From Virgibacillus sp. AGTR (GTDB lineage Bacteria > Bacillota > Bacilli > Bacillales > Amphibacillaceae), in contig NZ_JAJERH010000019.1 of NCBI RefSeq assembly GCF_016919725.2, forward strand, positions 1-57,880: a stretch of 57,880 nucleotides of DNA. Reading direction: 5' to 3'. Made by a program: the position numbers and the translations under genes. The notes beneath the pieces were generated by a model. That model saw nothing but the letters and a program-made list of their open reading frames with translations, ran no database searches and was not told where the DNA came from. Positions 3,361 to 48,280 of this stretch are shown piece after piece. How positions within the stretch are numbered: the stretch's first letter is position 1; every line of letters starts with the position of its first letter.

Positions 3361-3552
3361 CAAAAGCCCAAGCGCTCGATTAGAAACGTAGTGACTGGAG
3401 CGAGGCAACGGAGATAAAGGTATTACGGTGAGCTTGCGAGCCGATGATAACTTAGATTAGGGTGATTCGTGGAGTCGCCTCGTTTCTGGAGCTGGACGTA
3501 GCTCAACACGCGCCTATTTATCCACACGACTAATTTTATAATTTCTTAGACA
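3361..3552. repeat. dispersed repeat family A, copy 1
   Basis: About 192 bp sharing strings such as AGAAACGTAG, CAACGGAGATAAAGG, GAGCTTGCGAGCC and CTATTTATCCA with copies at 10364, 32549 and 48094, all in this orientation. It contains an internal hairpin (GGYGA/TCGCC) and a pairing AGAAACG/CGTTTCT. It fills the gene-free stretch 3256-3554 and ends 3 bases before the speD terminator. No ORF and no clear terminal inverted repeat are seen. Confidence 0.85.
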
Positions 3553-3554
3553 GT

Positions 3555-3603
3555 AAAAAAGGTCGATATTCTGCTGCAAGTTCCACAGACCATCGACCTT
3601 TTT
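3555..3603 (-). terminator. terminator of speD
   Basis: AAAAAGGTCGAT at 3556-3567 pairs with ATCGACCTTTTT at 3592-3603; the A/T tracts make it usable on both strands. It lies 20 bases past the speD stop. Confidence 0.8.
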
Positions 3604-3622
3604 GTACTTATTGAACTATTCA

Positions 3623-4003
3623 TTAAGCCTTTTTACGACTTTCCTTTATATTAACAGAACCTAGCCCTCGTGGTATTTCAACTTTTTCAAAACGCTTTGC
3701 CTCAAGTGCATTTGCAATATACTGAGCCGCTATATTCGGATCGATAACCTCCCCGCATGTGTATACATCTATACTCGCATACCCATGTTCAGGAAAGCTA
3801 TGAATCGTTAAATGCGATTCTGAAATAATGACTACACCGCTCACGCCATGTGGGGCAAATTTGTGAAAAGCAACCTCACGAATCTCAGCTCCTGCTTTTA
3901 AAGCAGCATCCACAAAAATTCGTTCGATTAAACGCATATCATTTAATTTATTAACATTGCACTGCCAAAGTTCCGCAATAACGTGCCTTCCCATTGTATC
4001 CAT
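3623..4003 (-). CDS. speD: S-adenosylmethionine decarboxylase proenzyme
   Basis: Makes decarboxylated AdoMet for spermidine synthesis. The 126-residue proenzyme belongs to the short bacterial (class 1B) type. The self-cleavage serine S63 lies in [10 protein letters not shown]; the processing and catalytic residues H68 and C83 are also present at the expected numbers. Cleavage before S63 would give a pyruvoyl group. The start is fixed by MDTMGRHV, conserved in Bacillus, and an AGGGGG ribosome site with a 7-base spacer. It lies downstream of gapB, as in B. subtilis, but after a 203-base gap with a structured leader. Confidence 0.97.
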
Positions 4004-4010
4004 GTATTTA

Positions 4011-4098
4011 TCCCCCTCATGGTATTGTTTCTTGAAGCCCTACTTTCTGCCACGGGGGAAAGTTAGTCCGATGAGGTCCTAACCCTTTAAGCAGAAAA
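4011..4098 (-). promoter_or_regulatory. candidate structured 5' leader of speD
   Basis: Between gapB and speD, read on the minus strand, TTTCTGC (4097-4091) pairs with GCAGAAA (4050-4044), and inside it GTTAG (4083-4079) pairs with CTAAC (4066-4062). A TTCCCCC segment (4060-4054) is complementary to the GGGGGA ribosome site of speD at 4011-4016, so an alternative fold could hide the site. The pairings are seen; the regulatory role and any ligand are inference. Confidence 0.5.
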
Positions 4099-4206
4099 AC
4101 AAATTAATCAAGAATACAACGAAAAGTATAACCTGTTTCACAGACATTTGCAATATTTTTCACATTGCTTAGACAGTACATGTATATGCACTAATGAACA
4201 TTCCAG

Positions 4207-5238
4207 TTAGCTAATTTGCGCTTGTTTTTGATAAAGGTAACTTCCAACATACTTTGTTAAATCGATCACTCGTTTGGAGTAACCCCACTCATTATCATAC
4301 CAAGCAAGAACCTTTACTTTATGATTATCCATTACCATCGTAGATAAACCATCAACAACTGCTGAAAAATCAGTTGTAGTATAATCAATTGAAACCAATG
4401 GTTCTTCACTATAGCTAACTATACCTTTAAAATCTGTTTCTTGAGCTTGTTTAAAAATATGATTAACCTCTTCAACCGAAATGGAATTCTTTACATCGAC
4501 AACCAAATCAACTAGGGATACATTAGGTGTTGGTACACGTAATGCCATTCCATGTAATCTTCCGTTTAAGTGTGGGATTACTTCTCCTAGTGCCTTCGCA
4601 GCACCAGTAGACGTAGGAATAATAGATTGTGTGCAACCCCGAGCTCGTCTAAGATCCTTGTGCGGGTTATCTATATTCTTTTGATCATTTGTAAATGCAT
4701 GCACTGTGGTCATTAATCCATTTTCAATTGAAAAATGGTCGTCAATTATTTTGACAATCGGTGCTAAACAGTTTGTTGTACATGATGCATTTGATATTAC
4801 ATCATCCTTTTCTGGATTATATACTCCTTCGTTTACTCCCATAACAATAGTTTGATCAACTTCCTTACCAGGTGCAGTAATCACTACTTTTTTCGCTCCA
4901 GCACGAATGTGCCCTCCTGCACTTTCTTTCGTTTTAAATTTTCCTGTTGCTTCAATAACAATATCGATATTTAACTCATCCCACGGTAAATTTTCAGGAA
5001 CACGAGAATTTACAAGTTTAATTTTCTTATCACTAATCATAATTCCTTCATTAACCGCTTTCACTTCTTTATCAAAAATACCGTGAACACTATCGTATTT
5101 AATAAGATGCGCCAGTGTCTCTGCAGGATAACTTGCATTTATAGCAACAACTTCAAGTTGTTCATCCAAAATCGCTTGACGAAATACCATTCGTCCGATT
5201 CGTCCAAATCCATTTATAGCAACACGAGTTTTATTCAT
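4207..5238 (-). CDS. gapB: glyceraldehyde-3-phosphate dehydrogenase 2, gluconeogenic (GapB type)
   Basis: Oxidoreductase of central carbon metabolism; the GapB type works in gluconeogenesis and prefers NADP. The 343-residue protein has the N-terminal Rossmann motif INGFGRIGR and the catalytic ASCTTNCLAP with C153. The segment INASYPAETLAHLIKYDS, where NAD-type GapA usually has an Asp-containing NDL stretch, is the GapB signature. The start at 5238 has GGGAGG with a 7-base spacer; an in-frame codon upstream lies in front of that site. A CcpN-like operator overlaps the likely -10 box. It probably shares a transcript with speD. Confidence 0.96.
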   Translation of the reverse strand: MNKTRVAINGFGRIGRMVFRQAILDEQLEVVAINASYPAETLAHLIKYDSVHGIFDKEVKAVNEGIMISDKKIKLVNSRVPENLPWDELNIDIVIEATGKFKTKESAGGHIRAGAKKVVITAPGKEVDQTIVMGVNEGVYNPEKDDVISNASCTTNCLAPIVKIIDDHFSIENGLMTTVHAFTNDQKNIDNPHKDLRRARGCTQSIIPTSTGAAKALGEVIPHLNGRLHGMALRVPTPNVSLVDLVVDVKNSISVEEVNHIFKQAQETDFKGIVSYSEEPLVSIDYTTTDFSAVVDGLSTMVMDNHKVKVLAWYDNEWGYSKRVIDLTKYVGSYLYQKQAQIS

Positions 5239-5287
5239 ACAAAGTCCTCCCACTATAAGTTATACTTTTTCTCTTTATTTATTAATT

Positions 5288-5298
5288 AGTATAACACA
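5288..5298 (-). promoter_or_regulatory. CcpN-like operator / -10 region of gapB
   Basis: On the minus strand TGTGTTATACT matches every position of the published CcpN consensus TRTGHYATAYW. It lies 50 bases upstream of the gapB start and includes TATACT, a plausible -10 box. CcpN represses gapB during growth on glucose in B. subtilis. Only one site was found. Confidence 0.5.
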
Positions 5299-5418
5299 TT
5301 AGGAGGTATATGTGTGTTTTATTTTAGATTTATCCAGATATTTTAGTTTTCAAACAATTAACCAAAGGTATTAATGTGTTTGAGATTAAAAAAGAGCAAG
5401 AACAAACGTATGTAATAT

Positions 5419-5555
5419 TGTGAAATTTAAATCAGTTGGGGTAAGCAATACCTCAACTGATTGTTAGTGGAACCAATCGGACATTTACTGGCAGTCGATC
5501 CATATTGGGTTCACTTTATTGCTTAAAGTGGGGATCTTACTGCCAGTAAATACGA
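5419..5555 (-). repeat. dispersed structured repeat family C, copy 1
   Basis: Read on the minus strand, a long hairpin (TTTACTGGCAGT at 5550-5539 with ACTGCCAGTAAA at 5495-5484, 12 perfect pairs) contains a smaller one (CACTTTA/TAAAGTG). It is followed by GTCCGATTGGTTC and a second hairpin, AATCAGTTG with CAACTGATT (5462-5454 and 5438-5430). Related to copies at 17499, 34580 and 36750. It occupies much of the gene-free stretch 5239-5831. Confidence 0.75.
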
Positions 5556-5583
5556 GATCCATTTATAAGCCAAACAACATAAT

Positions 5584-5631
5584 ACCGACCCTCGGAAGTT
5601 AGATTTTTCACTCTAACTTCACGGGGTCGGT
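5584..5631 (-). terminator. probable terminator downstream of coaE
   Basis: A long two-part hairpin: ACCGACCC (5584-5591) with GGGTCGGT (5624-5631) and, inside, GAAGTTAGA with TCTAACTTC. There is no strong U-tract, so it may stabilise a 3' end rather than terminate. The stretch 5632-5831 shows only a weak GAGAAGT/ACTTCTC pairing. Confidence 0.5.
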
Positions 5632-5831
5632 ATCAATCCGTTCGACTTTAGTTATGAAATGATGATTAGCTCCATTTAGTAATGGAAAATATCTAGACGA
5701 CTCCTTGAGGGAAAAGGGCACGGTAAGATCTATACTGAATGAGAAGTATTTACGCTACATTACTCAAGCACTTCTCTCATACTACACAAATCGGTTATAA
5801 TTTTTTTAGAAATGTAGGGTTTCTTTACAAG

Positions 5832-6431
5832 TTAACGAATTCCCCAAGTACGTAAGATTTCCTCCAGTTGTTCATAAGAAGCATGTTTTGTTCCATTGTT
5901 ATCAATAACAGCATCTGCCATAGCAGCTTTTTCTTTAACAGGTATTTGTGAAGCGATCCGCTGCTTGGCTTCTTTCTCAGAATAACCATTTCGCTTCATC
6001 AGTCTTTCGATTTGCACATGCTCATCAACATAGACAACAATTGTTTTATCAACTAGATAGGCTAGTTTGCTTTCAAATAGTAGTGGAATATCTAGAACGA
6101 CACACGCTGCTCCCGCTTTTACATAACCTTCTTTTCGCATTAGCATTTTTTCTCTTACGGCCGGATGAACGATATCGTTTAATTGCTTTCGCTTCGCTTC
6201 ATCTGCAAAAATAATTTCGCCTAATTTTTCACGATTGAGCGTTTTATCCTCTCGTAATACCTGTTTGCCAAAGGCTTCAATGATTTGATCGTAAGCTATC
6301 TCTCCCGGATTAACCACTTCTCTTGAGATTTTGTCGGCGTCGACAACTGGTATGTTATGATCGTCAAACATAAGGGATACGGTACTTTTACCACTAGCAA
6401 TACTTCCGGTTAATCCAATAATTAGTGCCAT
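5832..6431 (-). CDS. coaE: dephospho-CoA kinase
   Basis: Catalyses the last step of coenzyme A synthesis, phosphorylating the 3'-OH of dephospho-CoA with ATP. The 199-residue cytosolic enzyme has its P-loop GLTGSIASGKS at 6-16, followed by the substrate-site VVDADKI. The ribosome site AGAGGTGAGGA overlaps the mutM stop codon, 4 bases away, so translation is probably coupled to mutM. In B. subtilis ytaF lies between mutM and coaE; it is absent here. Confidence 0.96.
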   Translation of the reverse strand: MALIIGLTGSIASGKSTVSLMFDDHNIPVVDADKISREVVNPGEIAYDQIIEAFGKQVLREDKTLNREKLGEIIFADEAKRKQLNDIVHPAVREKMLMRKEGYVKAGAACVVLDIPLLFESKLAYLVDKTIVVYVDEHVQIERLMKRNGYSEKEAKQRIASQIPVKEKAAMADAVIDNNGTKHASYEQLEEILRTWGIR

Positions 6432-6435
6432 GTCC

Positions 6436-7269
6436 TCACCTCTTTAGTAGTTGGCAGGTTGTACAGATATGAGTGCCTCGTCCACCTATCTTCATTTTAA
6501 TAATTTGTTTACCACATTTTTTACATGCCTTATCCTCTTGTCCATAAACGAATAACTCTTGTTGAAACATCCCCATTTCTCCTTGACCATTTACATAAGA
6601 ACGTATCGTTGTCCCACCCTGTTTTACTGCTTCCTGAATGGTTACAATTGCCTGTTTGCGAACTTCTGTAATTTCTTTATGCGTTAGCTTATTAGCTTGC
6701 CGCAATGGGTGAACTCCTGCACGAAATAATGTTTCATCAACATAAATATTTCCCAATCCAGCGACAATTCCCTGATCAAGTAAGGCCGATTTAATAACTC
6801 GTTCTGTTTTTTTTAAATTATTTATAAAGTAATCCGTTGTAAATGCAGGATCAAAAGGATCTGGCCCTAATAAGTTTAATGGTTTACTTTTCATTTCTTC
6901 CCCTTTTTTGAAAAGGTGCATTGTTCCAAACTTACGAACATCATTATACCGAAGCTCTTCCCCATTCGTAAAAGAAAAAATAATATGGGTATGTTTCTTT
7001 AGTGGTTCAGACGACTTCGTAACACGATATTTACCTTCCATCCGTAAATGTGAAACTAATACGTAATCATCTAATTGGAATAATAGAAACTTTCCTTTCC
7101 GCAAAATATCATGTATTGTCTGTCCAACAAGTTCCATTTTAAATTGTTCCAAGTCATCAGGCCGTTTTATTATTTTTCCCCAATGAACATCAACATGATC
7201 GATTGTTTTATTTAAAACGAACTGTTTTAACGTTTTTCTAATCGTTTCAACTTCTGGTAATTCAGGCAT
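6436..7269 (-). CDS. mutM: formamidopyrimidine-DNA glycosylase
   Basis: Excises oxidised purines such as 8-oxoguanine and cleaves the abasic site. The protein begins MPELPEVE, with the catalytic N-terminal Pro (P2 of the ORF) and Glu (E3). The C-terminal zinc finger has C249, C252, C269 and C272 with the DNA-contacting R264 between them. Length 277 aa is normal. It has a GGAGAT-type site and lies 12 bases behind polA and 4 before coaE, forming a polA-mutM-coaE operon. Confidence 0.96.
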   Translation of the reverse strand: MPELPEVETIRKTLKQFVLNKTIDHVDVHWGKIIKRPDDLEQFKMELVGQTIHDILRKGKFLLFQLDDYVLVSHLRMEGKYRVTKSSEPLKKHTHIIFSFTNGEELRYNDVRKFGTMHLFKKGEEMKSKPLNLLGPDPFDPAFTTDYFINNLKKTERVIKSALLDQGIVAGLGNIYVDETLFRAGVHPLRQANKLTHKEITEVRKQAIVTIQEAVKQGGTTIRSYVNGQGEMGMFQQELFVYGQEDKACKKCGKQIIKMKIGGRGTHICTTCQLLKR

Positions 7270-7281
7270 CTTATTATCTCC

Positions 7282-9921
7282 TTATTTTGCATCAAACCAG
7301 CTATCACCAAAGGCATAATCAACCTTTAATGGAACCATTAATTCTACAGTGTTTTCCATCATAGCTGGGACTATTTCTTTTAGTTTTTCTATTTCTGATT
7401 TTGGTGCTTCTAAAATGAGTTCATCATGAACTTGAAGCAGCATACGTGCCTGTAGTTTTTCATCTTTTAGCTTTCCATGCAGGTCGATCATCGCTTTTTT
7501 TATAATATCAGCAGCACTTCCTTGAATCGGCGTATTCATGGCAGTCCTTTCGGCAAAGCTCCGCAAATTAAAATTCCTACTTGTGATTTCTGGTAAATAC
7601 CTTCTCCGATTCATCAATGTACTTACGAAGCCTTTGTGCTTCGCTTCTTGTACGATTTCATCCATATATGTTTTAACACCCGGATAGCTCTCGAAGTATC
7701 GCTCAATGAATTGCTTAGCTTCCTTCCTTGTAATTCCAAGGTTTTGAGAGAGTCCATAATCACTAATTCCATAAACAATACCAAAGTTTACAGCTTTTGC
7801 TTGACGGCGCATATTAGCAGTTACTTCGTCTTTATCAACATGGAATACATCCATCGCTGTTTGTGTGTGGATATCTGAGTCATTTTTAAAAGCAGCAATC
7901 AATTTTTCATCTTTAGCAATATGTGCTAATACCCGTAATTCTATCTGTGAGTAATCAGCTGCAAACATAACCCAATCCTCATTTGCAGGTATAAATGCAT
8001 GACGTATTTTTCTACCTTCCTCTAAACGAATAGGTATGTTTTGCAGATTTGGATCAATGGAGCTTAACCTGCCAGTTTGCGTTAACGCCTGGTTAAATCG
8101 GGTATGGATTTTATTAGACTGTTTATTTACTACTTTTAATAAACCTTCAATATACGTAGATTGTAACTTTCCAAGCTGACGATATAACAACAGCTTTGGA
8201 ATTATTTCGTGCTCACCTTGCAGCTGCTCTAAAACATCAGCAGCAGTAGAATAACCTGTCTTCGTTTTTTTTATAACAGGAAGCTTTAGCTTTTCAAATA
8301 GGATAGGGCCTAGCTGTTTGGGAGAATTTAAATTAAATGACTCGCCTGCCAATTCATGCACTTCTCGCTCAAGATCCGCTAATCGCTCTTTTAAATCAGT
8401 ACGCATTTCTTCCAAACGATCCGCGTCCACTAAAACTCCGGTATGCTCCATTTCTCCTAAAATTAATGCTAATGGCATCTCAAGCTCTTTAAACAGCTCA
8501 TATTGTTCGTTATCTTTTAGTTGTTGTTGCATCGTATCTCTTAAGCTAAACAATATGTTGGCTTTTCGAGCTACATGCTCCGCTAAAATATCCAATTCCG
8601 GTACCTTTTGTTTAGCACCCTTACCATACACTTCTTCATCAAATAGACAATCAGCCTGTCCCAGTCGGTTCGCTATCGCGGGAATATCGTGATTATTCTC
8701 AGATGGATTCAGTAAATACGATGCTAGTAGCATATCAAAGATTATGCCTTTTGTATGAATGTCATACCTCAGCAAAGAAACCAGTGTTTTTTTCGCATCA
8801 AATACGACCTTATGTTTACTCGCATCCTCCAACCAATTTTTAAATGCTTCAGAATTCAAGGCATTTTCAGTGGATATAAAGTAGGCATTGTCCTTATTGA
8901 CTATACCAAACCCTTCAATTGCTGACTGATGGTAGTTTTCTCCTAGCATCTCTATAATCAATGCCTCTTCACCTGTAAACGTATCATTAGTAACGTTTGA
9001 TAGAATAGTGTAATCTATTTCTTTCTTTGGAACATGATTACTTCCTACTTCTACTTCTCCTCCGTCAATTCGATTTAGTAGGGATTGAAAGCCTAGTTGC
9101 TTAAAAATATTAGTTACATTGTTTTGCTGATAGCCTTTGTAAGGAATATCATCTGTAGAAATAGTTATAGGCGAATCTTGATTTATTGTTACTAGCTCTT
9201 TACTCATAAATGCGTCATCTTTATGCGTAATGAGCTTTTCTTTTAATTTCTTACCACCAATATCATCAATATTTTCGTAGACTTGTTCTAAGGTATGAAA
9301 TTGTTTTAAAAGTTTTACTGCAGTCTTTTCTCCAACACCAGGAACACCGGGTATATTATCCGATTTATCACCCATTAATGCCTTTAAATCGATAATCTGA
9401 TCTTGGGTGATTTCCATTTTCTCTTTTAAAAATTGAGGTGTATATCGTTCAACATCACTAATTCCCTTTTTCGTCAAACTAACAGTAACCTTGTCGGAAA
9501 CAAGCTGTAACAAATCCTTATCACCAGAAATGACCGTTACATTCCATTCATCTGGTGTTACAAGCTTCGATAACGTTCCGATGATGTCATCCGCTTCATA
9601 ATTCTCCAGTTGGTAATGGGCAATTTCAAATGCGTCCAATACTTCCTTAAGTAATGGAAATTGTTCCGATAACTCCGGTGGTGTTTTTTGGCGTCCCCCT
9701 TTATATTCTTTATATGTAGCATGTCTAAAGGTTGTTTTACCTGCATCAAATGCTACTAACATATGTGTTGGCTTTTCTTCTTCTAGTATTCTTAACAGCA
9801 TTGTGGTAAACCCATATACAGCGTTCGTGTAAACACCTTTATCATTATTTAATAATGGCAACGCAAAGAATGCTCGATAGATAATACTGTTCCCGTCAAT
9901 TAAAACCAGTTTATTGCCCAT
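7282..9921 (-). CDS. polA: DNA polymerase I
   Basis: Fills gaps and removes RNA primers during lagging-strand synthesis and repair. The 879 aa match the Bacillus length. The N-terminal 5' nuclease (about 1-290) has LVLIDGNS and the DNA-binding GVPGVGEKTA segment. The middle domain keeps the 3'-5' exonuclease fold but lacks the acidic metal ligands (for example ALIIEML where E. coli has a Asp-x-Glu), so proofreading is probably absent, as in other Bacillus PolA. The polymerase domain has motif A DYSQIELRVLAH, the O-helix RRQAKAVNFGIVYG and motif C VHDELILE. The start at 9921 follows GGAGGCGAGAAG; an in-frame upstream ATG lies before that site. Confidence 0.96.
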   Translation of the reverse strand: MGNKLVLIDGNSIIYRAFFALPLLNNDKGVYTNAVYGFTTMLLRILEEEKPTHMLVAFDAGKTTFRHATYKEYKGGRQKTPPELSEQFPLLKEVLDAFEIAHYQLENYEADDIIGTLSKLVTPDEWNVTVISGDKDLLQLVSDKVTVSLTKKGISDVERYTPQFLKEKMEITQDQIIDLKALMGDKSDNIPGVPGVGEKTAVKLLKQFHTLEQVYENIDDIGGKKLKEKLITHKDDAFMSKELVTINQDSPITISTDDIPYKGYQQNNVTNIFKQLGFQSLLNRIDGGEVEVGSNHVPKKEIDYTILSNVTNDTFTGEEALIIEMLGENYHQSAIEGFGIVNKDNAYFISTENALNSEAFKNWLEDASKHKVVFDAKKTLVSLLRYDIHTKGIIFDMLLASYLLNPSENNHDIPAIANRLGQADCLFDEEVYGKGAKQKVPELDILAEHVARKANILFSLRDTMQQQLKDNEQYELFKELEMPLALILGEMEHTGVLVDADRLEEMRTDLKERLADLEREVHELAGESFNLNSPKQLGPILFEKLKLPVIKKTKTGYSTAADVLEQLQGEHEIIPKLLLYRQLGKLQSTYIEGLLKVVNKQSNKIHTRFNQALTQTGRLSSIDPNLQNIPIRLEEGRKIRHAFIPANEDWVMFAADYSQIELRVLAHIAKDEKLIAAFKNDSDIHTQTAMDVFHVDKDEVTANMRRQAKAVNFGIVYGISDYGLSQNLGITRKEAKQFIERYFESYPGVKTYMDEIVQEAKHKGFVSTLMNRRRYLPEITSRNFNLRSFAERTAMNTPIQGSAADIIKKAMIDLHGKLKDEKLQARMLLQVHDELILEAPKSEIEKLKEIVPAMMENTVELMVPLKVDYAFGDSWFDAK

Positions 9922-10363
9922 CTTCTCGCCTCCGTTAATTTCTTCATTAACCATATTTTATCATCCTAGCTTCATAAAGTGAAACGACATTCTCTATGTA
10001 AGCATATAACAGAAAAGATTACTGCCTTCCTTATCATTTTGTTCTTTCTTACTATGATGTGACTTCTTTCTAAACAGCTGCTAAAAAAGAAGAAGATGGG
10101 ACAAAACAAAACTTCATTACTCAAATACGAATAATCATGTTATCAATGGGAGCATCACCGACGCATCATGAAAATATACTCGCTTTCCGCAGGAACGGCC
10201 TTAGCTAACTTGGTAAAGAAAAACACGTTACCAAGTGGAGCTTCGAACTCGTGCTGTTCCTGCTAGATAAGGAAGGCTTCGGCAGCGATACATCGGCGCA
10301 GAAAAACGTTCTTCTTTTGAAGGAGCATTGCATTTTCAGGTGCTTCATTAATTATTCTAAGAA

Positions 10364-10556
10364 CAAAAGCGCAAGCACCCGATTAGAAACGTAGCGAATG
10401 ATGCGAGTCAACGGAGATAAAAGAATCACGGTGTGCTTGCGAGCCGAATTAGATTAGGGCGATTCGTGAAGTCGCCTTGTTTCTGGGTGCTGGAGCTGGG
10501 CGCGGCTCAACACGCCCCTATTTATCCACATCGGCACATTTTATACTTTCCTAGAC
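10364..10556. repeat. dispersed repeat family A, copy 2 (nested in family B)
   Basis: Same sequence and orientation as the copies at 3361, 32549 and 48094, ending TTTCCTAGAC. The flanks on both sides match the continuous family B copy at 39563-39859, which shows that A was inserted into (or lost from) this position. No target duplication is obvious. Confidence 0.85.
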
Positions 10557-10560
10557 CACC

Positions 10561-10607
10561 AAAAAACGAACGATAATTAGTTTTAACTAATTATCGTTCG
10601 CTTTTTA
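10561..10607 (-). terminator. terminator of phoPR (family B end hairpin)
   Basis: A perfect 16-bp stem, CGAACGATAATTAGTT (10567-10582) with its complement at 10585-10600, flanked by A6 and T5 so it can work on both strands. It lies 31 bases past the phoR stop and is homologous to the hairpin at 39785-39821. Confidence 0.85.
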
Positions 10608-10637
10608 TTGTTTATTCATTACTTTTGTCGTATGCTG

Positions 10638-12017
10638 TTAGTCATCTATTCTCACCTTTGGTAAATACACAGTTACAGCTGTCCCTTGCCCAGGTTCGCT
10701 TTCTATTTGTATGTCTCCGTCATGAACCTCAACAATATGTTTAACGATGGCGAGGCCAAGCCCTGTACCACCTGTATTTCTACTCCGTGCTTTATCTACC
10801 CGGTAAAAACGCTCGAAGATACGAGGAAGTGCATCTTTTTCAATCCCAATTCCAGAATCTTTCACTTGAATACTAACGGTGTCATCACTTCGCTTTACTT
10901 CCAAGTTAACTCTACCTTTTTCGGGGGTATAATTAATAGCATTATCTAATAAGTTAATCATAATTTGTTTTATTTTTTCCATATCTGCAGTTAATTCTAA
11001 CCCCTCTTCTACATCAACAGAAAATGATAGGTCCTTTTTTTTCATCTTATGTTCTACAATTAGCTTAACTTCTCGAACGAGCTCCTTCACATTAAATGTC
11101 GTTAAAACCAATTGAAAATTTTCTTTCTCCAGCCTCGAAAGTATTAGTAAATCCTCTATTAACAGCTGGAGGCGATGACTTTCTTTATAAATAATTTCTA
11201 GAAATTCCTTGTTATCTTCTGAATGTGGCATGGAGTTATCCAAAAGCGTTTCAGCGAATCCTTTAATAGAAGTAATCGGCGTTTTTAACTCATGGGATAC
11301 ATTTGCTACAAAATCCTTACGCATTAATTCAAGCTTCTTCATTTCTGTAATATCGTATAAAACTAACACAGCTCCTTTTAGCATATTTCGATCATTAAAA
11401 ATAGGAGCACCAACGATTTCAATATAAAACTTATCAATTCCTTTAAAATGCGTGAATTCCTCTTTTACATTTCGTTCGTATAAGAAGGTTTTTTGGACTG
11501 TTTCATGGATAATTTCATTGTCCAACACATCATAATATAAATAACCTTGATAATCCTTTGCGGTTAATCCGAATAACGAAATAAATTTACCGTTAACGAA
11601 ATGGATGTAGCCTTTTGAATCAATTAAAACGAGCCCACTTTGTGTATTTTCTATAATCGTAGACAGCTGTTCAGACTGCATTTGTTCTTGAATAGATAAT
11701 TCGCTTAAGTTCCGCGCTAACGAATTGATCTTATTACTTAACATACCAATACTGTCTCCACTTGGGTGATGAAATCTAGCACGGTAATTACCTTTAACAA
11801 TCTCATCCACAGTCTTCGTTGCTTTTTTAATTGGTTTTATAAATCTTTCATGAAAATGAAGTAAAAACAGTAATAATATTATAAATTGAATGAATAACAC
11901 TGCAGTTAGCGTAACATAGTTTCCTAGTAATACGCTTAATAAAATTCCTGTTATCGCAACAACCATAAAGATTCCGATAACATAACCAAAAATTGGCTTC
12001 CTAAATAAAAATTGCAT
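10638..12017 (-). CDS. phoR: phosphate-sensing histidine kinase PhoR
   Basis: Membrane sensor kinase that phosphorylates PhoP in phosphate limitation. Two membrane segments lie at about 11-32 and 35-54 with almost nothing between them. They are followed by HAMP (57-108), PAS (115-225), the H-box FVANVSHELKTP with H242, and an ATPase domain with NLLDNAINY and GTGLGLAI near the C-terminus. Length is 459 aa against about 580 in B. subtilis: the missing part is the extracellular sensor domain. It overlaps phoP by one base (TAATG), so translation is coupled. Identity as PhoR rests on the phoP partner and the polA/mdh neighbourhood. Confidence 0.9.
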   Translation of the reverse strand: MQFLFRKPIFGYVIGIFMVVAITGILLSVLLGNYVTLTAVLFIQFIILLLFLLHFHERFIKPIKKATKTVDEIVKGNYRARFHHPSGDSIGMLSNKINSLARNLSELSIQEQMQSEQLSTIIENTQSGLVLIDSKGYIHFVNGKFISLFGLTAKDYQGYLYYDVLDNEIIHETVQKTFLYERNVKEEFTHFKGIDKFYIEIVGAPIFNDRNMLKGAVLVLYDITEMKKLELMRKDFVANVSHELKTPITSIKGFAETLLDNSMPHSEDNKEFLEIIYKESHRLQLLIEDLLILSRLEKENFQLVLTTFNVKELVREVKLIVEHKMKKKDLSFSVDVEEGLELTADMEKIKQIMINLLDNAINYTPEKGRVNLEVKRSDDTVSIQVKDSGIGIEKDALPRIFERFYRVDKARSRNTGGTGLGLAIVKHIVEVHDGDIQIESEPGQGTAVTVYLPKVRIDD

Positions 12018-32542: not shown

Positions 32543-32548
32543 ACAAAT

Positions 32549-32740
32549 AAAAGCGCAAGCGCGAATAGAAACGTAGCGACTGGAGAGAGTCAACGGAGAT
32601 AAAGGAATCACGGTTAGCTTTCGAGCCAATGATAACTTAGATTAGGGCGATTCATGAAGTCGCCTAGTTTCTGGGCACTGGATCTGGACGTGGCTCAACA
32701 CGCCCGTATTTATCCATAGGCTCAAATTTTATAATTGACT
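32549..32740. repeat. dispersed repeat family A, copy 3
   Basis: 192 bp, same orientation as the other copies, beginning AAAGCGCAAGCG and ending before the hairpin at 32742. It fills the space between the ytpI stop and the ytoI 3' end. Confidence 0.85.
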
Positions 32741-32741
32741 T

Positions 32742-32799
32742 ATAAAGCTACCGGAGTGAGTGCTTCTTATCCATTAAGCACTCCCCCCAGTAGCTTTAT
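32742..32799 (-). terminator. long hairpin next to repeat A copy 3
   Basis: ATAAAGCTAC (32742-32751) with GTAGCTTTAT (32790-32799) and an inner GAGTGCTT/AAGCACTC. T-tracts are weak on both strands. It may serve ytpI, ytoI or both. Confidence 0.55.
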
Positions 32800-39859: not shown

Positions 39860-39867
39860 TCTCCACT

Positions 39868-40589: not shown

Positions 40590-40645
40590 CTATATAACAT
40601 TAAAACGATATACTCACTACATCACTAAGAATATTCCTCAATTAC

Positions 40646-40686
40646 ATTAGAAGCACTTCCACATTATTGTTGGAAGCGCTTCTAAT
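40646..40686 (+). terminator. hairpin shared by the convergent usp and moaB genes
   Basis: A 16-bp stem with one mismatch: ATTAGAAGCACTTCCA (40646-40661) with TGGAAGCGCTTCTAAT (40671-40686). It overlaps the last codons of moaB. T-tracts are weak (GTGGTGATTCTTTT). Confidence 0.6.
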
Positions 40687-41197
40687 GTGGTGATTCTTTT
40701 CTTAATTCGTGGATGATATGAGATAATTCTGGAATGATTAATTTTTCCATGGCTAACTTTACCGCTCCAGTAGAACCAGGGAGTGCAAAAATAACTGTTT
40801 GGTTTCGAGTACCTGCAACTGCTCTTGAAAGAATAGCGGCTGACCCAATATCTTCTTTGTAACTCAACATTCGAAATATCTCTCCAAAGCCAGGGATTTC
40901 TTTCGTAAAAAGTTCTTTTATTGCTTCAATGGTAACGTCTCTATCAGCAATACCAGTTCCACCATTACAAATGATTACTTCAACACCGGGATTGACACAA
41001 GCTCTCGTAACTATTTTTTGAATGTCATTTCGATCATCTTTAATAATATCTCTGACACTTATCCAATGTCCGTTCGCCTTCAATTGTTCTTCAATAAGCC
41101 CTCCACTCATATCAGTTTCCAATGTCCGTGTATCGCTAATAGTTAAAATCATGCAATTTACTACGTGGTTTTCACGCTTATGTTCCTTTACTGACAA
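40682..41197 (-). CDS. moaB: molybdenum cofactor biosynthesis protein MoaB
   Basis: MoaB/MogA-type protein that adenylylates molybdopterin. The 171 aa include the signature [11 protein letters not shown] and the C-terminal [19 protein letters not shown]. The start is TTG behind GGAGAGGT; the first internal Met (MILTISD) would remove a conserved N-terminal stretch. No other cofactor gene is in the window, so it stands alone between usp and ackA. Confidence 0.93.
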
Positions 41198-41230
41198 TTA
41201 ATACCTCTCCCATCCATTATGATTTTATAA

Positions 41231-41269
41231 AAAAGGTTTTGCTATGGTTCAACCACACCAAAACCTTTT
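41231..41269 (-). terminator. terminator of ytxK-ackA
   Basis: AAAAGGTTTTG and CAAAACCTTTT form an 11-bp stem followed by TTTATAAAATC on the minus strand, directly after the ackA stop. Confidence 0.85.
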
Positions 41270-41271
41270 AA

Positions 41272-42462
41272 CTAACTAATTTGTGAAAGTCTGATTGTAT
41301 CTCTGGCAATCATAACCTCTTCATTTGTAGGGATTACGATTACTTTAACTGGAGAGTGTGGATAATTAATAAATTGTTCTTTTCCTCGAACTTTATTGAG
41401 TGCTTGATCCCAGTAAACCCCCATAAATTCAAGACCATGTAAAACCTTTTCTCGGATCACATCACTATTTTCTCCAACTCCAGCAGTAAAGATAATGGCA
41501 TCTACGCCAGACATTTTTGCTGCATAGGAACCTAAATATTTATGAATACGACCTGCAAATACTTCTAAAGCTAATTCTGCTCGCTTATTCTCTTGAGCTG
41601 TCTGTTCAATATCTCTTAAATCACTTGAGAATCCAGATAAAGCTAGCATACCACTTTCCTTATTCAACACATGAATCACTTCATCCGCGGACTTTCCTGT
41701 TTTTTCCATAATATAAGGGATAAGCGCCGGATCTATATTACCTGAGCGTGTTCCCATAGTTACCCCAGCTAATGGAGTGAAGCCCATTGATGTGTCAATT
41801 GACTTACCACCTTGAATAGCTGCAATACTTGCACCATTACCAAGGTGACAAGATATAAGGCGCAGGTTCTCCAATGGCAGACCCATCAGATCCGCTGCTC
41901 GCTGCGAAACATACTTATGTGATGTACCATGAAATCCGTATTTACGTATGCCATAATCTTTATAGTACTCATATGGTAAGCTATAAAGATAAGATGACTC
42001 TGGCATCGTTTGATGGAATGCAGTATCAAACACAGCCACCATTGGTACCTCCGGTAAAATTTCACGGAAAGCATGAATTCCCGTCAAATTTGCAGGGTTA
42101 TGCAAAGGTGCCAATTCCGACACTTGTTCAATCGTTTCAATAACTTTGTCGTTAATGACAACTGAATCACTAAAACGTTCCCCACCATGAACTACGCGAT
42201 GACCAACTGCATTTATTTCATCAAGTGAAGTAATGACCCCAGAAGACGTTAATGATGCTAGTAGTTTCTTTACTGCTTCTTCATGGTTTGGAATCTCTTC
42301 CACAAATTTATCTTTTTCACCTTGAACATCCATTGTAAATACTGACTCATTTAGACCAATTCGTTCCACTAGCCCTTTTGCTAGAACGCGCTCGTTTGGC
42401 ATTTGTATTAATTGGAATTTCAAAGATGAACTACCGGCGTTTATTGCCAATACATTACTCAT
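41272..42462 (-). CDS. ackA: acetate kinase
   Basis: Converts acetyl phosphate and ADP to acetate and ATP in overflow metabolism. The 396 aa begin [15 protein letters not shown] (phosphate loop) and contain [10 protein letters not shown], the family signature [20 protein letters not shown], and the second phosphate loop [10 protein letters not shown]. The ATG lies within ytxK, overlapping its end by 8 bases (ATGAGTAATG), so the two are coupled. It has an AAAGGAG site inside ytxK. Confidence 0.97.
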
Positions 42463-43456
42463 TGCTGTTCAACTCCTTTTTATACGTTTGGAACCAATTA
42501 TTTATTTGACCTAAAATATCTCCCATTGCTCTCGTATTGTTGAAAGAAGGCATTTTAACCAATAGTGGTTGTTTAGGAGATGCTGTCTGCTGTCCTTTTT
42601 TTTGTAGTATTAAGATACTTTTTCGATGCTTATCAGATTTGAAGGCACTTTCTGGCAACCTTAGGATGCCAACCATATGAGCATAATCATGAATAAATTG
42701 TTGAAGCTTGTCTGATTGATCACTATCAAATAAAAATTCTGGAATAACTAGAATAAGGTATCCGCCTGGTTTTGTGTAATTAAGACTTTGCTCTATAAAT
42801 AAGTGATGCGCATAAGAATGACCTTTATCGGCCTTAAGTTTAAAGTCACTCGCACGTAAGTCGTCTGGATAGTATCCAACAGGTAGATCAGCTACGATTA
42901 AATCTACAGGGTCCAATAAAAATGGACGAAGACTATCTTGATGGAAAAACTCAATATTCTTTTTCTGCAAGTTCGCATTCCAAACAGCTAGTTGAATTAA
43001 CGTTGAATCAACTTCACTTGCAAATGCTTCTTTGATTTGTGGTAGTTGACTTAGAACCGCAGTTATTAAATTTCCAGTTCCACCAGCTGGATCAAACAAG
43101 CGAATGTTTTCGGCGTCATCGAATAATTTATTTGCCAAATACGCAATCATTAGCGATACTGTTTCTGGTGTCATTAAATGCTGCTGTTGAATAGAGCCTT
43201 TCATTCCTTTTAGAATAGCAAGCTGATTAGCTTTTCTTACTTCCTCAGCTGAGAATGAATCTATTTTTAATTCGACTAAAGCTTGCTGTAATTTGATTGC
43301 TAGGCTTTCATCTATATTATCTGGCACTTCTTGCATAAATACGATTTCCATCGTATAACCTAAGCTTTCCAGATATGGTTCATTAACATACTGTTGAATC
43401 TTATTTGTCGTTTCATCTATCCATTCATACAATGTTTCGACATTTGATTTCTCCAT
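42455..43456 (-). CDS. ytxK: class I methyltransferase-like protein YtxK
   Basis: A 333-residue protein shaped like the N6-adenine DNA methyltransferases. A helical N-terminal third is followed by a Rossmann domain with the AdoMet motif DPAGGTGN at 122-129. The catalytic motif, normally Asn/Asp-Pro-Pro-Tyr/Phe, is DLPVGY at 190-195, so base flipping and adenine methylation are doubtful. It is always found upstream of ackA in Bacillus; no restriction enzyme is nearby. Real substrate unknown. Confidence 0.88.
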
Positions 43457-43593
43457 ATAGCATCCTCCATTCGTTCCTTCAGAGCGTTTCTATTGTACCA
43501 AAGGAAATGGGACTATGTACAAAATAATGCTAATTAAGTTCTGTAGCACACAGTAAAAATCCCCCTCATTTACTGAGAGAGATTCCGTTCGAG

Positions 43594-44094
43594 TTATTTA
43601 GCTTGTCTGGCAGCTTCCAGGGCAGCATCATAATCCGGATGATTACTCACTTCTTTAACATATTCTACATAAGTAACTATATTATTGGAGTCAACAACAA
43701 ATATAGATCTTGCTAGCAGACGTAACTCCTCTATAAGAACACCATAGTTCTTTCCAAAATGAGCATCTCGGTGGTCTGACAATGTATCAAGCTTCTTAAT
43801 ATCATGTTGGTTAACCCAGCGTTTTTGTGCAAATGGTAAATCCATACTCACCGTTAAAACTTTAACATTTTCAATCTGATCAGCTTCTTCATTAAAACGT
43901 TTTGTTTGCTCTGCACATACACCTGTATCAATGGAAGGAACAACACTAATCAGCTTAACCTTCTCTTTATAATCAGTTAATGTAACTTCTTCTAAATCAT
44001 TAGATAGTACTTTAAAAGAAGGTGCTTCATCACCAACTTTCACTTCATTACCTACAAGTGTGACAGGTTCTTGTTGGAATGTAACATTTGCCAT
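43594..44094 (-). CDS. tpx: thiol peroxidase (Tpx type), resolving cysteine absent
   Basis: Peroxiredoxin that reduces hydroperoxides. The 166 aa have the peroxidatic site PSIDTGVC with C60, the conserved T57, and the R in ELRLLARSIF. The usual Tpx resolving Cys at about 94 (in RWC) is V94 (FAQKRWVNQHD), and C60 is the only Cys in the protein. So the normal C60-C94 disulphide cannot form. The codon is GTT, so this is not a borderline reading. The start at 44094 follows AGGAGG by 10 bases; upstream in-frame codons overlap or precede that site. Confidence 0.93.
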   Translation of the reverse strand: MANVTFQQEPVTLVGNEVKVGDEAPSFKVLSNDLEEVTLTDYKEKVKLISVVPSIDTGVCAEQTKRFNEEADQIENVKVLTVSMDLPFAQKRWVNQHDIKKLDTLSDHRDAHFGKNYGVLIEELRLLARSIFVVDSNNIVTYVEYVKEVSNHPDYDAALEAARQAK

Positions 44095-44253
44095 ATGAAT
44101 CATTCCTCCTAAATAATTGTATTCCTTCTTCATTATGAATTGAATAGCGGTGCATGTCCAATAATTTATGGCTATGAAATCTAGAAATATTTGTGAACGG
44201 AATTAGCTACGCTTACATTATAGAATGGTGTATGAGTTGCATTTATACAACCA

Positions 44254-44727
44254 TTAAATATCATATTGGGTAGGCATCTCTTTAGGTTTCTTATTTTCTT
44301 GTTTCTTTGAACCTTGCTGTTGACTTGATTCTTTCATTATCTGTTGCACCTTTTCTACAACCTGTGGCGCAAAATCAATCATTTTTTCATAGATATGTGT
44401 ATGATGATCTAAATGAACCATCTTAATTCCTCTTTCACTGACAATCAAAAATGCTACCGGTGTAATTGATACTCCTCCACCGCTACCTCCTCCAAATGGA
44501 AGTGTTGCTTCACCACTTTCACTACTGCTATCGGATTGGGATTGACTACTTGTAGAATTAAACTCACTACCACCTGCAGCAAATCCAAAACCAACTTTGG
44601 ACACAGGTATAATAACACTGCCATCCGGAGATTGAACAGGATCTCCAATAATTGTGTTTACCTCTACCATATCCTTCAAATTTTCCATTGCAGTAGTCAT
44701 TAGCCCTTGAATAGGATGCTCTTCCAT
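44254..44727 (-). CDS. ytfJ: GerW family sporulation protein YtfJ
   Basis: A 157-residue protein needed for proper spore germination in B. subtilis (GerW). The N-terminal MTTAMENLKDMVEVNTIIGDP and IPVSKVGFGFAAGG are conserved. A low-complexity Ser/Gln/Gly section (about 60-90) is followed by SITPVAFLIVSERGIKMV. The C-terminal tail is Lys/Gln/Pro rich. The start follows AAGGAG by 9 bases. It overlaps or abuts ytfI, its usual partner. Confidence 0.9.
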   Translation of the reverse strand: MEEHPIQGLMTTAMENLKDMVEVNTIIGDPVQSPDGSVIIPVSKVGFGFAAGGSEFNSTSSQSQSDSSSESGEATLPFGGGSGGGVSITPVAFLIVSERGIKMVHLDHHTHIYEKMIDFAPQVVEKVQQIMKESSQQQGSKKQENKKPKEMPTQYDI

Positions 44728-44732
44728 CACAA

Positions 44733-45332
44733 TCAACTCCTTTTATACATTTGTGCTTGATGTATCAATAGCTTCTTATTATTAGCCATTATTCTCATGA
44801 CTTGAAGAAATCCACTTATAGCTTGTGCTATTCGAATAGAAACAATACAATAAATTTCGGATTGTATATATTTCTGTTGAAAAAGTGGTACAACTTTAAT
44901 ATCTGGATGACAATTAAAAATCCCATGTTCTTGAAGCCATGCTATGATAACACCTTTTACTGTCCAGACACCTCCTGATACAATACCTGTAAGTGATGCA
45001 TCACCAGTACCACCTACCGTATGCCACTTCATTTGTTTGAATTTCATCTTCTGTAGCATAACCGAAATTGCTTTATGACCTTGACGTAGGATATGAAGCG
45101 CCTCATTAAGTTTACTCGGTAATTCACGAAAATTAATAGCAGGCGTGTTACTTTCGAAATCATCTAACATCATCGTTCGTCTTATAATCGGAATTTTCCA
45201 CCAATAAATCCGTATCGTTATAGAAGTATTTGCTTGGCAATATGCTCCTTGAACATGAATGATTAGCTTTGAGAATAAAAAGATAACAGCAATCGCGATC
45301 ACGGTTATCATAAATATAGCCCACCCCCACAT
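44733..45332 (-). CDS. ytfI: DUF2953 protein YtfI
   Basis: A 199-residue protein with an N-terminal membrane helix (about 3-22) and a second hydrophobic stretch near 120-140, matching DUF2953 of Bacillus. The start at 45332 has GAGGTG with a 6-base spacer; two in-frame codons upstream (45338 and 45428) fit less well, the first being part of the ribosome site. Its stop lies 5 bases before the ytfJ start. Function unknown, presumably spore related because of ytfJ. Confidence 0.82.
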   Translation of the reverse strand: MWGWAIFMITVIAIAVIFLFSKLIIHVQGAYCQANTSITIRIYWWKIPIIRRTMMLDDFESNTPAINFRELPSKLNEALHILRQGHKAISVMLQKMKFKQMKWHTVGGTGDASLTGIVSGGVWTVKGVIIAWLQEHGIFNCHPDIKVVPLFQQKYIQSEIYCIVSIRIAQAISGFLQVMRIMANNKKLLIHQAQMYKRS

Positions 45333-45524
45333 TTTCATCACCTCAGTTTCATAGCTGTTCCTATTTTTCCTCAAATTTCCTATTTTAATCATTCGTTTTA
45401 CTCCACTAGGATAATAGCAACAAAACATGATAGAATATGGTTATACTGCTTTGCTTAATAGCTTAAAGTAGATAGTAGTATAAAGTGCATCTCGTCATCA
45501 CATTTGGGAGGGTATCAAAAGAAT

Positions 45525-46325
45525 ATGACTGATCGAAAAAATATTTTCTTCTATTATTTAAGTGACCAAGGGCTTGAAGATAAATTAAATGCCCTATACC
45601 AATTAGCAGAGTCAAATGGTTTTACAATTGTAAACGATTTCGAACATGCTAATATTATTGTAAGTATTGGAGGTGACGGTGCTTTCTTACAAGCTGTACG
45701 TAAGACAGGCTTTCGTCAAGATTGCCTTTATACAGGAATAACTCGTTCGGGGGAATCAGGTCTATATTGCGATTTTAATATGGATAATGTTGATGAAATG
45801 TTGAAGACAATCCAATATGAAGAAATGGAAGTTCGTCGTTTTCCTGTGATTAATGCGGAATTAAATGGTGAGACGAGTTTTTATTGCCTTAATGAAATTA
45901 GTGTCCGCTCGACTATTATTAAATCCATCGTTATGGATGTGTTTATTGATGACATTCACTTCGAAACCTTCAGAGGGGACGGACTAATTGTTGCAACACC
46001 AACAGGAAGTACAGGTTATAATAAATCTACGAATGGAGCGGTCATTGACCCAAAAATTCCTTGTTTTCAAGTTACCGAGTTAGCATCCATAAATAATAAT
46101 CGTTATCGCACCCTGGGTTCTTCTTTTGTTCTTAATAGTGATAGAAAGTTAACGTTATCAGTCCAGCAGGATGGTAATGATTATCCAATTATCGGTCTTG
46201 ACAATGAAGCATACTCCATTCGAAATATAAGGGATATTTCTGTTACATTAAGTGACCATGTTATTAAAACCGTGAAATTAAAAAATAACTCCTATTGGGA
46301 CAGAGTAAAACGTACGTTTTTATAA
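45525..46325 (+). CDS. nadK2: NAD kinase 2
   Basis: Phosphorylates NAD to NADP. The 266-residue protein has the ATP/metal loop VSIGGDGAFL with G49-G52, the NAD motif LNEISVR, and the glycine loop TPTGSTGYNKSTNGA. Length and place next to ytfI match B. subtilis YtdI. The start at 45525 follows GGGAGGGT by 11 bases. Single gene, divergent from ytfI. Confidence 0.95.
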   Translation: MTDRKNIFFYYLSDQGLEDKLNALYQLAESNGFTIVNDFEHANIIVSIGGDGAFLQAVRKTGFRQDCLYTGITRSGESGLYCDFNMDNVDEMLKTIQYEEMEVRRFPVINAELNGETSFYCLNEISVRSTIIKSIVMDVFIDDIHFETFRGDGLIVATPTGSTGYNKSTNGAVIDPKIPCFQVTELASINNNRYRTLGSSFVLNSDRKLTLSVQQDGNDYPIIGLDNEAYSIRNIRDISVTLSDHVIKTVKLKNNSYWDRVKRTFL

Positions 46326-46359
46326 CTAGAGCGTGAAGCAGCATATAACGTATAATACG

Positions 46360-46400
46360 GACAAGAACCGATCTAATTAAATAGAAGAAAGGTTCTTGTC
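46360..46400 (-). terminator. hairpin at the 3' end of ytcJ
   Basis: GACAAGAACC (46360-46369) pairs perfectly with GGTTCTTGTC (46391-46400), overlapping the last ytcJ codons. No T-tract follows on either strand, so termination is uncertain. Confidence 0.35.
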
Positions 46401-47987
46401 ATATACAATTTTCCCGTCAATTACTGTCATTGCAACGTCAATTTCGTGAATCTCATTTGGATTGACTTGGAAAATATCTTTCTCCAAAATAGTGAAATCA
46501 GCGTGATAACCTTCCGTAATCAAACCTCTACTATTCTCTTGATTAATTACATAAGCACTACCAGTCGTATATAATTGTACGGCTTCAAATATAGTCAGCG
46601 CTTCTTTAGGTAAGTATGTTTTTCCATCAAAAGAGGATTTACGAATAACCGCAGCTTGAATTCCAAGTAACGGATCCACTTTCTCAATTGGTGCATCGGA
46701 CCCACCAGCACAATGTATTCCGTGCTGAAGCATAGATTTCCAAGCATACGCTAAGTCTAGCCGTTTTTGTCCCAGCCGATCAATTACCCAAGGGAAATCT
46801 GAAGCAACAAAGGTCGGTTGGATGTCTACGACAGCAGGAAGCTCCTTTAGTAATTCAAAGGCTTGTTTATTTAAAATTTGTCCATGGATAATTCGATCGC
46901 GAGCATTCGTTGCTAACGGATATTTACTCAATATGGATGCAATTTCTAAAACGGCTTGATCTCCAATGGCGTGAACTGCTACTGGCAACTGATAGACACG
47001 TGCCCTAGCCACGAGTTCCTCTAACTCAGGTATGCTGTGAATTGCAAAACCTCTGTTTCCAATGTCATCCGCATAATCTGTAGACAACCATGCTGTCCTC
47101 CCCCCCAATGCTCCGTCCGAAAATATTTTGACTGCGCCAAGCTCTGCATAACGTGGCCCCTTCAAATACCCTAGCCCAGCATGAATCATGTCTTCCATAA
47201 CTTCATGATGGACGAGTAAATGCGCTTTAAATATTTTCTCCTTCCCATCCAACACATGTTTAAAAGCACCAAAAGTCTTATCAAATCCACCAAAATAATT
47301 AAGGTCTTCACTGTGTCCTCCAACTAAGCCCTTTGAAAGAAGATCATCTATAGCGATTGAGATTACTTGTTCTAGATAAGCCTGTGAAACAGTTGGCATT
47401 GCTTGCTTTATTAATTCCTGAGCAGTATCCAAGAAATAACCCGTTGTCTCTTCATCATCATCTCGTTCAATAACGCCACCTTTTGGATTAGCTGTTTTAT
47501 TTACAGTATCAATACCTGCCAGTTCTATTGCTTTGCTGTTAGCTAAAATAGCGTGACGGCATACTCGAGATAACATGACAGGATTATGAGGTACAATTTC
47601 GTCAAGTGCAGTTTTGTGAATAATGAGTGGTTCATCCCAATGGTTTTCATTCCAGCCCTCACCCACGAGCCACTCTCCCTCAGAAAGATTTGTAGCTCGG
47701 TTAAACAGTGCTTCTAATACTTCTTCGGCTGATTGCATTTGGGAAAGATCAAGCCGAAGTAATTTCTCACCATGCCAAATAATATGCAAATGACTATCAA
47801 CAAATCCTGGTAACATTGTTTTTCCGTTCAAATTTATTGCTTCATCTATTTGATTAAAATAAGTATGATACAAATATTCATACGTTCCAATAGCAACTAT
47901 TTGATGTTCCTCGGTAAATACAGCATCTACCACTACATCCTCACGTTCCATCGTGTAGATCGGTCCACCAAACCATAGTGTTCCCAT
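46377..47987 (-). CDS. ytcJ: amidohydrolase family protein YtcJ
   Basis: A 536-residue metal-dependent amidohydrolase of the imidazolonepropionase-like group. The metal site GFVDSHLHIIWHG (about 60) has both His ligands; further ligands are in VHAIGD, HGQ and GGSDAPIE. It ends with the small beta domain (HADFTILEKD). The substrate is unknown. The start at 47987 follows AAGGAG by 12 bases; the GTG seven codons upstream includes that site. No signal peptide. Confidence 0.88.
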   Translation of the reverse strand: MGTLWFGGPIYTMEREDVVVDAVFTEEHQIVAIGTYEYLYHTYFNQIDEAINLNGKTMLPGFVDSHLHIIWHGEKLLRLDLSQMQSAEEVLEALFNRATNLSEGEWLVGEGWNENHWDEPLIIHKTALDEIVPHNPVMLSRVCRHAILANSKAIELAGIDTVNKTANPKGGVIERDDDEETTGYFLDTAQELIKQAMPTVSQAYLEQVISIAIDDLLSKGLVGGHSEDLNYFGGFDKTFGAFKHVLDGKEKIFKAHLLVHHEVMEDMIHAGLGYLKGPRYAELGAVKIFSDGALGGRTAWLSTDYADDIGNRGFAIHSIPELEELVARARVYQLPVAVHAIGDQAVLEIASILSKYPLATNARDRIIHGQILNKQAFELLKELPAVVDIQPTFVASDFPWVIDRLGQKRLDLAYAWKSMLQHGIHCAGGSDAPIEKVDPLLGIQAAVIRKSSFDGKTYLPKEALTIFEAVQLYTTGSAYVINQENSRGLITEGYHADFTILEKDIFQVNPNEIHEIDVAMTVIDGKIVYDKNLSSI

Positions 47988-48093
47988 AGCTTCTTCGATC
48001 TCCTTCACTAGAAAAATGTTATATACATACCTTACTTATTTTCTGAATAGGAATCAAGAGGGATTATAGTCATAATAGGTTTACCAATGAGAA

Positions 48094-48280
48094 CAAAGCG
48101 CAAGCGACTGGAGCGAGTCAACGGGGATAAAGGAATCACGGTGAGCTTGCGAGCAGATGATGACTTATGTAGGGCGATTCATGAAGTCACCTCGTTTCTG
48201 GGCACTGGCGCTGGACGCAGTTCAACACACCCCTATTTATCCATATGGGCAAATGTTATAATTTCCTTCATTTCCTAGAC
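48094..48280. repeat. dispersed repeat family A, copy 4
   Basis: 187 bp, with a 20-bp internal loss near the left end (GCGCAAGCGACTGGAGCG joins parts separated in other copies) and a 7-base duplication near the right end. Same orientation as the others; lies just beyond the sspA terminator. Confidence 0.85.

Follow-up and report, generated by a model that had tools for sequence, protein, structure and literature searches.

Short repeats behind transcription terminators in Virgibacillus: probable miniature derivatives of IS91-family rolling-circle transposons

The transposons of the IS91 family (IS91, IS801 and ISCR) have a transposase with the domains Zn_Tnp_IS91 and Y2_Tnp, an HUH motif and a YxxxY motif, and an end made of a hairpin and GTTC (reverse complement GAAC), features that return in the type-1 elements described below. 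According to published work, the two tyrosines of IS91 are Y249 and Y253 (PMC5714925), and IS801 transposes with its transposase in trans, yields small derivatives, uses the tetranucleotides GAAC, GGAC, CAAG and CGAC as targets, and exemplifies a left end described for the family with GAAC (IS801) and a GC-rich stem-loop (PMC3189936). Group IIC introns, which differ from such transposons in being retroelements with a ribozyme and a reverse transcriptase, insert just behind rho-independent terminators (PMC8919778). Here we analyse a repeat, family A, that occurs four times in a stretch of 57,880 nucleotides (nt) of Virgibacillus sp. AGTR (contig NZ_JAJERH010000019.1; the whole stretch is called the window), and we consider it highly probable that this repeat derives, as a miniature without a transposase of its own (non-autonomous), from rolling-circle transposons (HUH, Y2) of the IS91 family that target terminators. 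Among other repeats and gene-less elements, the 190-bp repeat of B. subtilis is short, dispersed, mostly intergenic and of similar size, and non-autonomous Helitrons are gene-less rolling-circle elements of eukaryotes that insert between A and T. Helitrons of this kind resemble family A in carrying a hairpin near the 3' end (PMC4778049), and bcr1 of the B. cereus group and Bhal-1 (PMC2267715), likened here by description only, are short, dispersed, mostly intergenic repeats of similar size.

Alignment and reading of the four repeats in the window identify them as copies of one element of ~200 bp, all on the minus strand. The copies and the hairpins in front of them, with the outcome of a strict terminator test (a hairpin and a T-tail ending at the element), are as follows.

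3358..3551, minus strand: element A copy 1, behind speD; left leader GTCTAAG..., right end ...GGGCTTTTGTTC
3555..3600, minus strand: speD host terminator; hairpin AAGGTCGAT...ATCGACC and T-tract; strict test passed
10361..10556, minus strand: element A copy 2, behind phoR; reads GTCTAGG...GCGCTTTTGTTC
10561..10600, minus strand: phoR host terminator; CGAACGATAATTAG hairpin and T6; strict test passed
32545..32743, minus strand: element A copy 3, behind ytoI; leader altered (ATAAGTCAATTATAAAATT), right end GCGCTTTTATTT
32754..32777, minus strand: hairpin behind ytoI; T-tract absent, strict test failed
48091..48280, minus strand: element A copy 4, behind sspA; short internal duplication in the leader
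48285..48313, minus strand: sspA host terminator; the same terminator, free of the element, in the relatives G140, G141, G142 and G144

A first-pass annotation of the window had reported four repeats of the same orientation, each adjoining a terminator. All four are real and lie near the positions noted there, with boundaries redrawn here. The second part of the statement is plain for the speD, phoR and sspA copies, each of which has a clear hairpin terminator in front of it, in sense orientation, and starts a few nt past its T-tract. The ytoI copy is the weakest of the four; it starts ~10 nt after a hairpin without T-tract (~32777-32754) and has the altered leader. The doubled segment in the leader of the sspA copy lies at window positions 48261-48280; similar doubled leaders were seen at C171:4493, C112:20706 and C112:127951.

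How general is this placement? A search of the 4.7-Mb genome (215 contigs) with the 24-nt core of family A, allowing up to 3 mismatches, gave 127 matches, split almost evenly between the two contig strands (63 and 64), and the reversed core as control gave zero matches genome-wide. The 100 core matches listed (of the 127) and a set of 30 loci were examined and yielded 115 pieces with a profile hit, among which some are the two halves of a single copy; 89 of the 115 were usable, their left end being intact and preceded by 70 nt or more of sequence. The enrichment of terminators suspected from the window was thus checked genome-wide, and it holds: 67 of the 89 copies have a terminator by the strict test directly upstream and in sense, as compared with 1, 2, 2, 5 and 2 of 88 in windows shifted by 30, 60, 100, 150 and 200 nt, 8 of 89 in antisense, 8 and 3 of 89 in the 3' flank, and 27 of 600 at random positions. 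When the test is relaxed to require no more than TTTT within 14 nt upstream, 75/89 copies pass, versus 7/88 and 10/93 in controls. The nearest end of an open reading frame within 400 nt upstream belongs to a frame running toward the element in 67 of 93 cases and away from it in 8, with none found in 18. The placement of family A behind terminators in sense orientation is confirmed. The sequence profile upstream of 85 copies shows a T-tract, then mostly [AG]TAG, then TCTAGGAAATTATAAAATT, and in 50/89 copies 4 or 5 nt separate the last T-run from TCTAGG. Terminator sequences vary between copies, and the copies themselves are diverged (mean pairwise identity ~79%, flanks of 22 nt counted in, for 2000 random pairs drawn from 76 full copies). 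Inspected by eye, many of the 22 copies that fail the strict test turn out to follow a weak hairpin, or a different repeat, with a T-tract. Another repeat, around ATGATTATTCGTATTTTGAGTAAAGAAGTTGTGTTTTGTCCCAGCCTC (window 10138-10124 and 39610-39596, minus strand), often ends in a T-tract and is the landing site of some A copies (flanks C183:115829, C144:19254 and C189:16038).

Directly behind some A copies starts a second repeat, B, which is a second, young family. A 31-nt probe for it matches the genome at 86 places, exactly at 60 of these, and 12 copies measured are 302 to 571 bp long (L273 is a shorter form, 302 bp versus ~570); two copies that were translated contain no long reading frame. 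B passes the strict test in 32 of 45 copies (controls 3, 2 and 2 of 44; antisense 2/45), has TTTT within 14 nt upstream in 46 of 49, and its near-identical copies sit behind unrelated terminators. At its right end B has a hairpin of its own that resembles a terminator, GAGCGAATTTTGCTC, and behind it a T-rich tail that often reads GTTTTTCTTAT. A third leader, C, is found behind right ends of both B and A. The last 70 nt of element A itself pass the terminator test in 45/89 copies, and another leader directly follows 14 of 93 A right ends. Of 49 distinct B copies, 15 sit on the right end of an A; among 89 A copies, 3 sit on the right end of a B and 1 on that of an A. The near-identical B copies (L257-L286), several of which are at contig ends, may break the assembly.

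It could be imagined that these elements insert at random and survive only behind terminators, where they do little harm. Survival alone, however, leaves unexplained the single orientation, the 4-5-nt spacing in 50/89 A copies and the placement of the young B copies, so that this explanation appears very unlikely.

A source of the repeats is suggested by transposase-coding elements with similar ends. Among 156 genomes screened from the host's taxonomic family, 24 contain a match to Y2_Tnp, and 3 of 3 proteins tested score above the Pfam cut-offs for both Zn_Tnp_IS91 and Y2_Tnp. The proteins of L317 and L331 contain NPHIHAL (HIH), a form of the HUH motif, and KYIGRY (YxxxY). A leader was present in the scanned stretch of 25 of 35 IS91-type loci, and 19 of these 25 pass the strict test, a set on which no control was run and in which L334 was scored as failure through anchoring of a wrong leader, its leader by eye following TTTTTTT. 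Read in gene direction, full-length leader-bearing copies have a terminator just in front of them and a hairpin with a T-rich tail at their far end, and they fall into two types. Type 1 starts TCTAGGAAATTATAAAATT...TGTGGATAA and ends GCG[AC]TTTTGTTC, like A, with GTTC behind the hairpin; type 2 starts AAGATAAGAAAGTATAAAA or near variants and ends GCCCGGTTTTTCTTAT, with CTTAT, C and B being alike in kind. Members of the IS91 family are characterised by the absence of terminal inverted repeats and of a target duplication; the two ends of the elements here differ by eye, and type 2 shows a short ATAAG/CTTAT likeness.

On sequence likeness, A shares both ends with the autonomous elements of type 1 and B with those of type 2. 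Eight type-1 loci agree with the A consensus at 17-20 of its initial 20 positions (L317 and L331 at all 20), the best match among 300 shuffled 600-nt stretches being 15/20, and the right end GCGCTTTTGTTC is found at 11-12 of 12 positions in seven of the eight, the eighth, L325, being a 5' fragment. For type 2, the first 20 nt of C match 11 loci at 16-20 of 20 positions, and the B right end GTTTTTCTTAT is present at 11/11 in six of them and at 10/11 and 9/11 in two. Within the genome, the C leader at L297 flanks a Y2_Tnp fragment, the only one found, and C137:6038-6853 is a decayed type-2 element with left and right type-2 ends and a broken, partly inverted inside. Transposase-coding copies are also nested: in another genus a type-2 IS91 element lies directly on an A-like right end (L313 in G152; GGGCGCTTGCGCCTTTGTTC), and at L307/L332 (G043:C1:483401-485533) a type-1 element starts on the right end of a type-2 one, forming a chain of two transposase-coding copies.

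A 9-mer, TGTGGATAA, which we take to be the DnaA box consensus, lies ~27-35 nt into family A copies (e.g. window 10530-10522, minus strand). It follows the first 20 nt by 6-7 nt in A and in the seven type-1 leaders read, in all seven of which it is intact while the preceding bases vary. At 8 or 9 of 9 positions it is present in 67 of 90 A copies versus 0/90 shuffles and 0/90 of a control stretch; since A copies are related, this count reflects descent and not independent events.

The sspA terminator can be recognised in four congeneric relatives (G140, G141, G142 and G144), where no element follows it; at this site the terminator is older than the element. No A-like element in the same place and orientation was seen in the four orthologous gaps of the four relatives. 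In this comparison of occupied and empty terminators, proposed by the first-pass annotation, G142 has short leader-like stretches in the speD and ytoI gaps, and between phoR and polA G141 carries a related element on the opposite strand, with a T-tract of its own in front of it. An empty-site search with the flank of L317 turned up relatives that have different terminators there, but L317 is masked on its right side.

These data bear on a further explanation, that the repeats are functional RNA elements of 3' untranslated regions kept by selection beside terminators. Their sense orientation, their fixed distance and the terminator-like last 70 nt of 45/89 elements would fit such a role. It is nevertheless highly improbable, given the empty orthologous terminators, the near-identical B copies behind unrelated terminators and the like placement of transposase-coding relatives; moreover, one A copy, folded as DNA, folds no better than shuffles (z -0.55; 59 of 200 shuffles as good), and Rfam gave no match in the window at the gathering level or in four other A copies at E<=0.1. 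Of the two causes suggested in the first-pass annotation, a function that needs a transcript 3' end accordingly finds no support, and an insertion mechanism that recognises terminators is supported by the varied terminators, the empty sspA site, the near-identical B copies and the transposase-coding elements placed alike.

Which enzyme could be responsible? Mobilisation by a reverse transcriptase in the style of group IIC introns would account for insertion right after rho-independent terminators, in the same orientation and at the same distance as here (PMC8919778). However, the genome has a single RVT_1 match, which belongs to a group II intron with a 625-amino-acid reading frame (G000:C150:110197-110937, L287), no intron match was obtained in the window or in four other A loci, and both ends of A match IS91-type DNA transposons, not introns, which makes this route extremely unlikely. 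The Y1 transposases of the IS200/IS605 type are also HUH enzymes acting on asymmetric ends, and the genome has seven Y1_Tnp matches (L288-L294), but six of these have internal stops and the seventh is a 66-amino-acid frame, a leader occurs in one of the eight Y1 and RVT loci (L289, where it belongs to a neighbouring A copy) and the shared ends belong to Y2, not Y1, elements, so that such a mobiliser is scarcely credible. RVT_1 and Y1_Tnp proteins were accordingly rejected as drivers of A. A was also rejected as a group IIC intron itself, as Rfam gave no intron match in the window or in these four other loci, and as a classical miniature inverted-repeat transposable element, its ends (GTCTAGGAAATT... 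and ...GCGCTTTTGTTC) by eye not being inverted repeats of each other.

An origin of family A from IS91-type elements suggests the following mode of action. A transposase supplied in trans would join the left end (the leader, an origin-like end adjoining the target) to DNA just 3' of a hairpin and T-tract. Since the right end of A (a short GC hairpin, a T-rich tail and GTTC) is built like the target, target choice may amount to mimicry of this end. Each inserted copy would then be a new landing site, which would explain the chains of elements observed. The preference may be tolerated because the site lies behind the stop signal of a gene. The box TGTGGATAA may have a role in this process. IS801 differs in its tetranucleotide targets (PMC3189936), which contrast with the terminator hairpin and T-tract found here; read in reverse, two of them, GTTC and CTTG, resemble the A right end and, loosely, the bases before the A leader. 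The miniature derivatives of IS801 are alike in being small mobile pieces of an IS91-family element, and differ in arising by one-ended transposition with the right end kept (PMC3189936), whereas A and B share both ends with full-length elements and reach ~100 copies. A search of the open-licence literature found no report of terminator targeting by IS91 elements, and the repeat core, searched as letters in the same literature, gave matches that are unrelated, as judged by title only.

Several observations weigh against this explanation. The hairpin and GTTC end lies downstream of the transposase gene here, while in the IS91 family GAAC (IS801) and the GC-rich stem-loop are described for the left end (PMC3189936), so that the polarity differs. 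The likeness of A to the full-length elements is confined to the two ends, the first 43 nt aligning without gaps at 23-26 of 43 positions, and GTTTTTCTTAT reaches 7-8 of 11 in L310, L313 and L320, although L310 has the motif at the contig end, outside the scan. In the genome no type-1 transposase is left, the sole Y2_Tnp match being the fragment mentioned above, and A is therefore not tied to a driver of its own in this genome. Copies off terminators or pointing both ways were sought as evidence against the placement, and the outcome favoured it, but failures of the strict test without any T-tract include C141:13406 and the ytoI copy. No empty site with both flanks was found, so that neither the exact junction nor a lack of target duplication is proven. 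In 10 of the 35 IS91-type loci, including the multi-copy type of G013, a leader is absent from the scanned stretch (one of them, L311, has it outside this stretch), and two of eight plasmid loci, L335 (cut by IS5) and L339 (Cetobacterium), have none. Because of these 10/35 loci and these two plasmid loci the terminator rule is not shown for all IS91 relatives.

The repeats extend well beyond this genome. The core GTCYAGCTCCAGYGCCYAG was found in 55 of the 156 genomes screened from the host's family and also in named Neobacillus, Mesobacillus, Oceanobacillus, Pontibacillus, Virgibacillus, Lysinibacillus and others. In the named genomes a first core pattern gave no match, and a shorter core used instead gave at least 119 stretches, 80 of which were taken for analysis; at least three of the 80 (L138, L152 and L202) are unrelated high-GC coding sequence, the others not having been checked individually. 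Leaders in these loci pass the terminator test in 15 of 22 cases, namely 15/19 with the core downstream and 0/3 without, and the leader pattern read backwards gave no match in the same loci. Six of the eight plasmid loci (L334, L336, L337, L338, L343 and L344), from Enterococcus, Pediococcus and Lacticaseibacillus, begin right behind a terminator with a related leader, L336 and L338 being one insertion in related plasmids and not independent. Related Lactobacillales plasmids without the element share the terminator, and the likeness stops within a few nt of the T-tract; as the right flanks of the plasmids differ, only the left flanks of these empty sites are comparable. It is tempting, if still tentative and rather less than an even bet, to extend the proposal to a branch of IS91 elements in Bacilli (Bacillaceae, Enterococcus, Pediococcus and Lacticaseibacillus) that would target terminators as mimics of its own right end, each copy creating the next target, the near-perfect DnaA box at the left end in type 1 and A suggesting that the host initiator starts replication of the displaced strand. 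Rfam gave eight matches in 14 loci of other genera. One, to the Bacillaceae-1 RNA (L174, 4085-4152, plus strand), lies inside an element of the superfamily (core at 4363, minus strand), and these mobile repeats may include the Bacillaceae-1 RNA family as a module.

To our knowledge, terminator targeting has so far been known for group IIC introns, and it would thus be added to the repertoire of rolling-circle DNA transposons. Since a hairpin and T-tract can be built and broken piecewise, the target choice of IS91-type elements becomes testable, and such elements could serve as gene-sparing insertion tools. For the Bacillaceae, the proposed origin would provide a source and a mechanism for a common repeat superfamily, its core motif occurring in 55 of the 156 genomes screened, for which no explanation was found in the literature searched.

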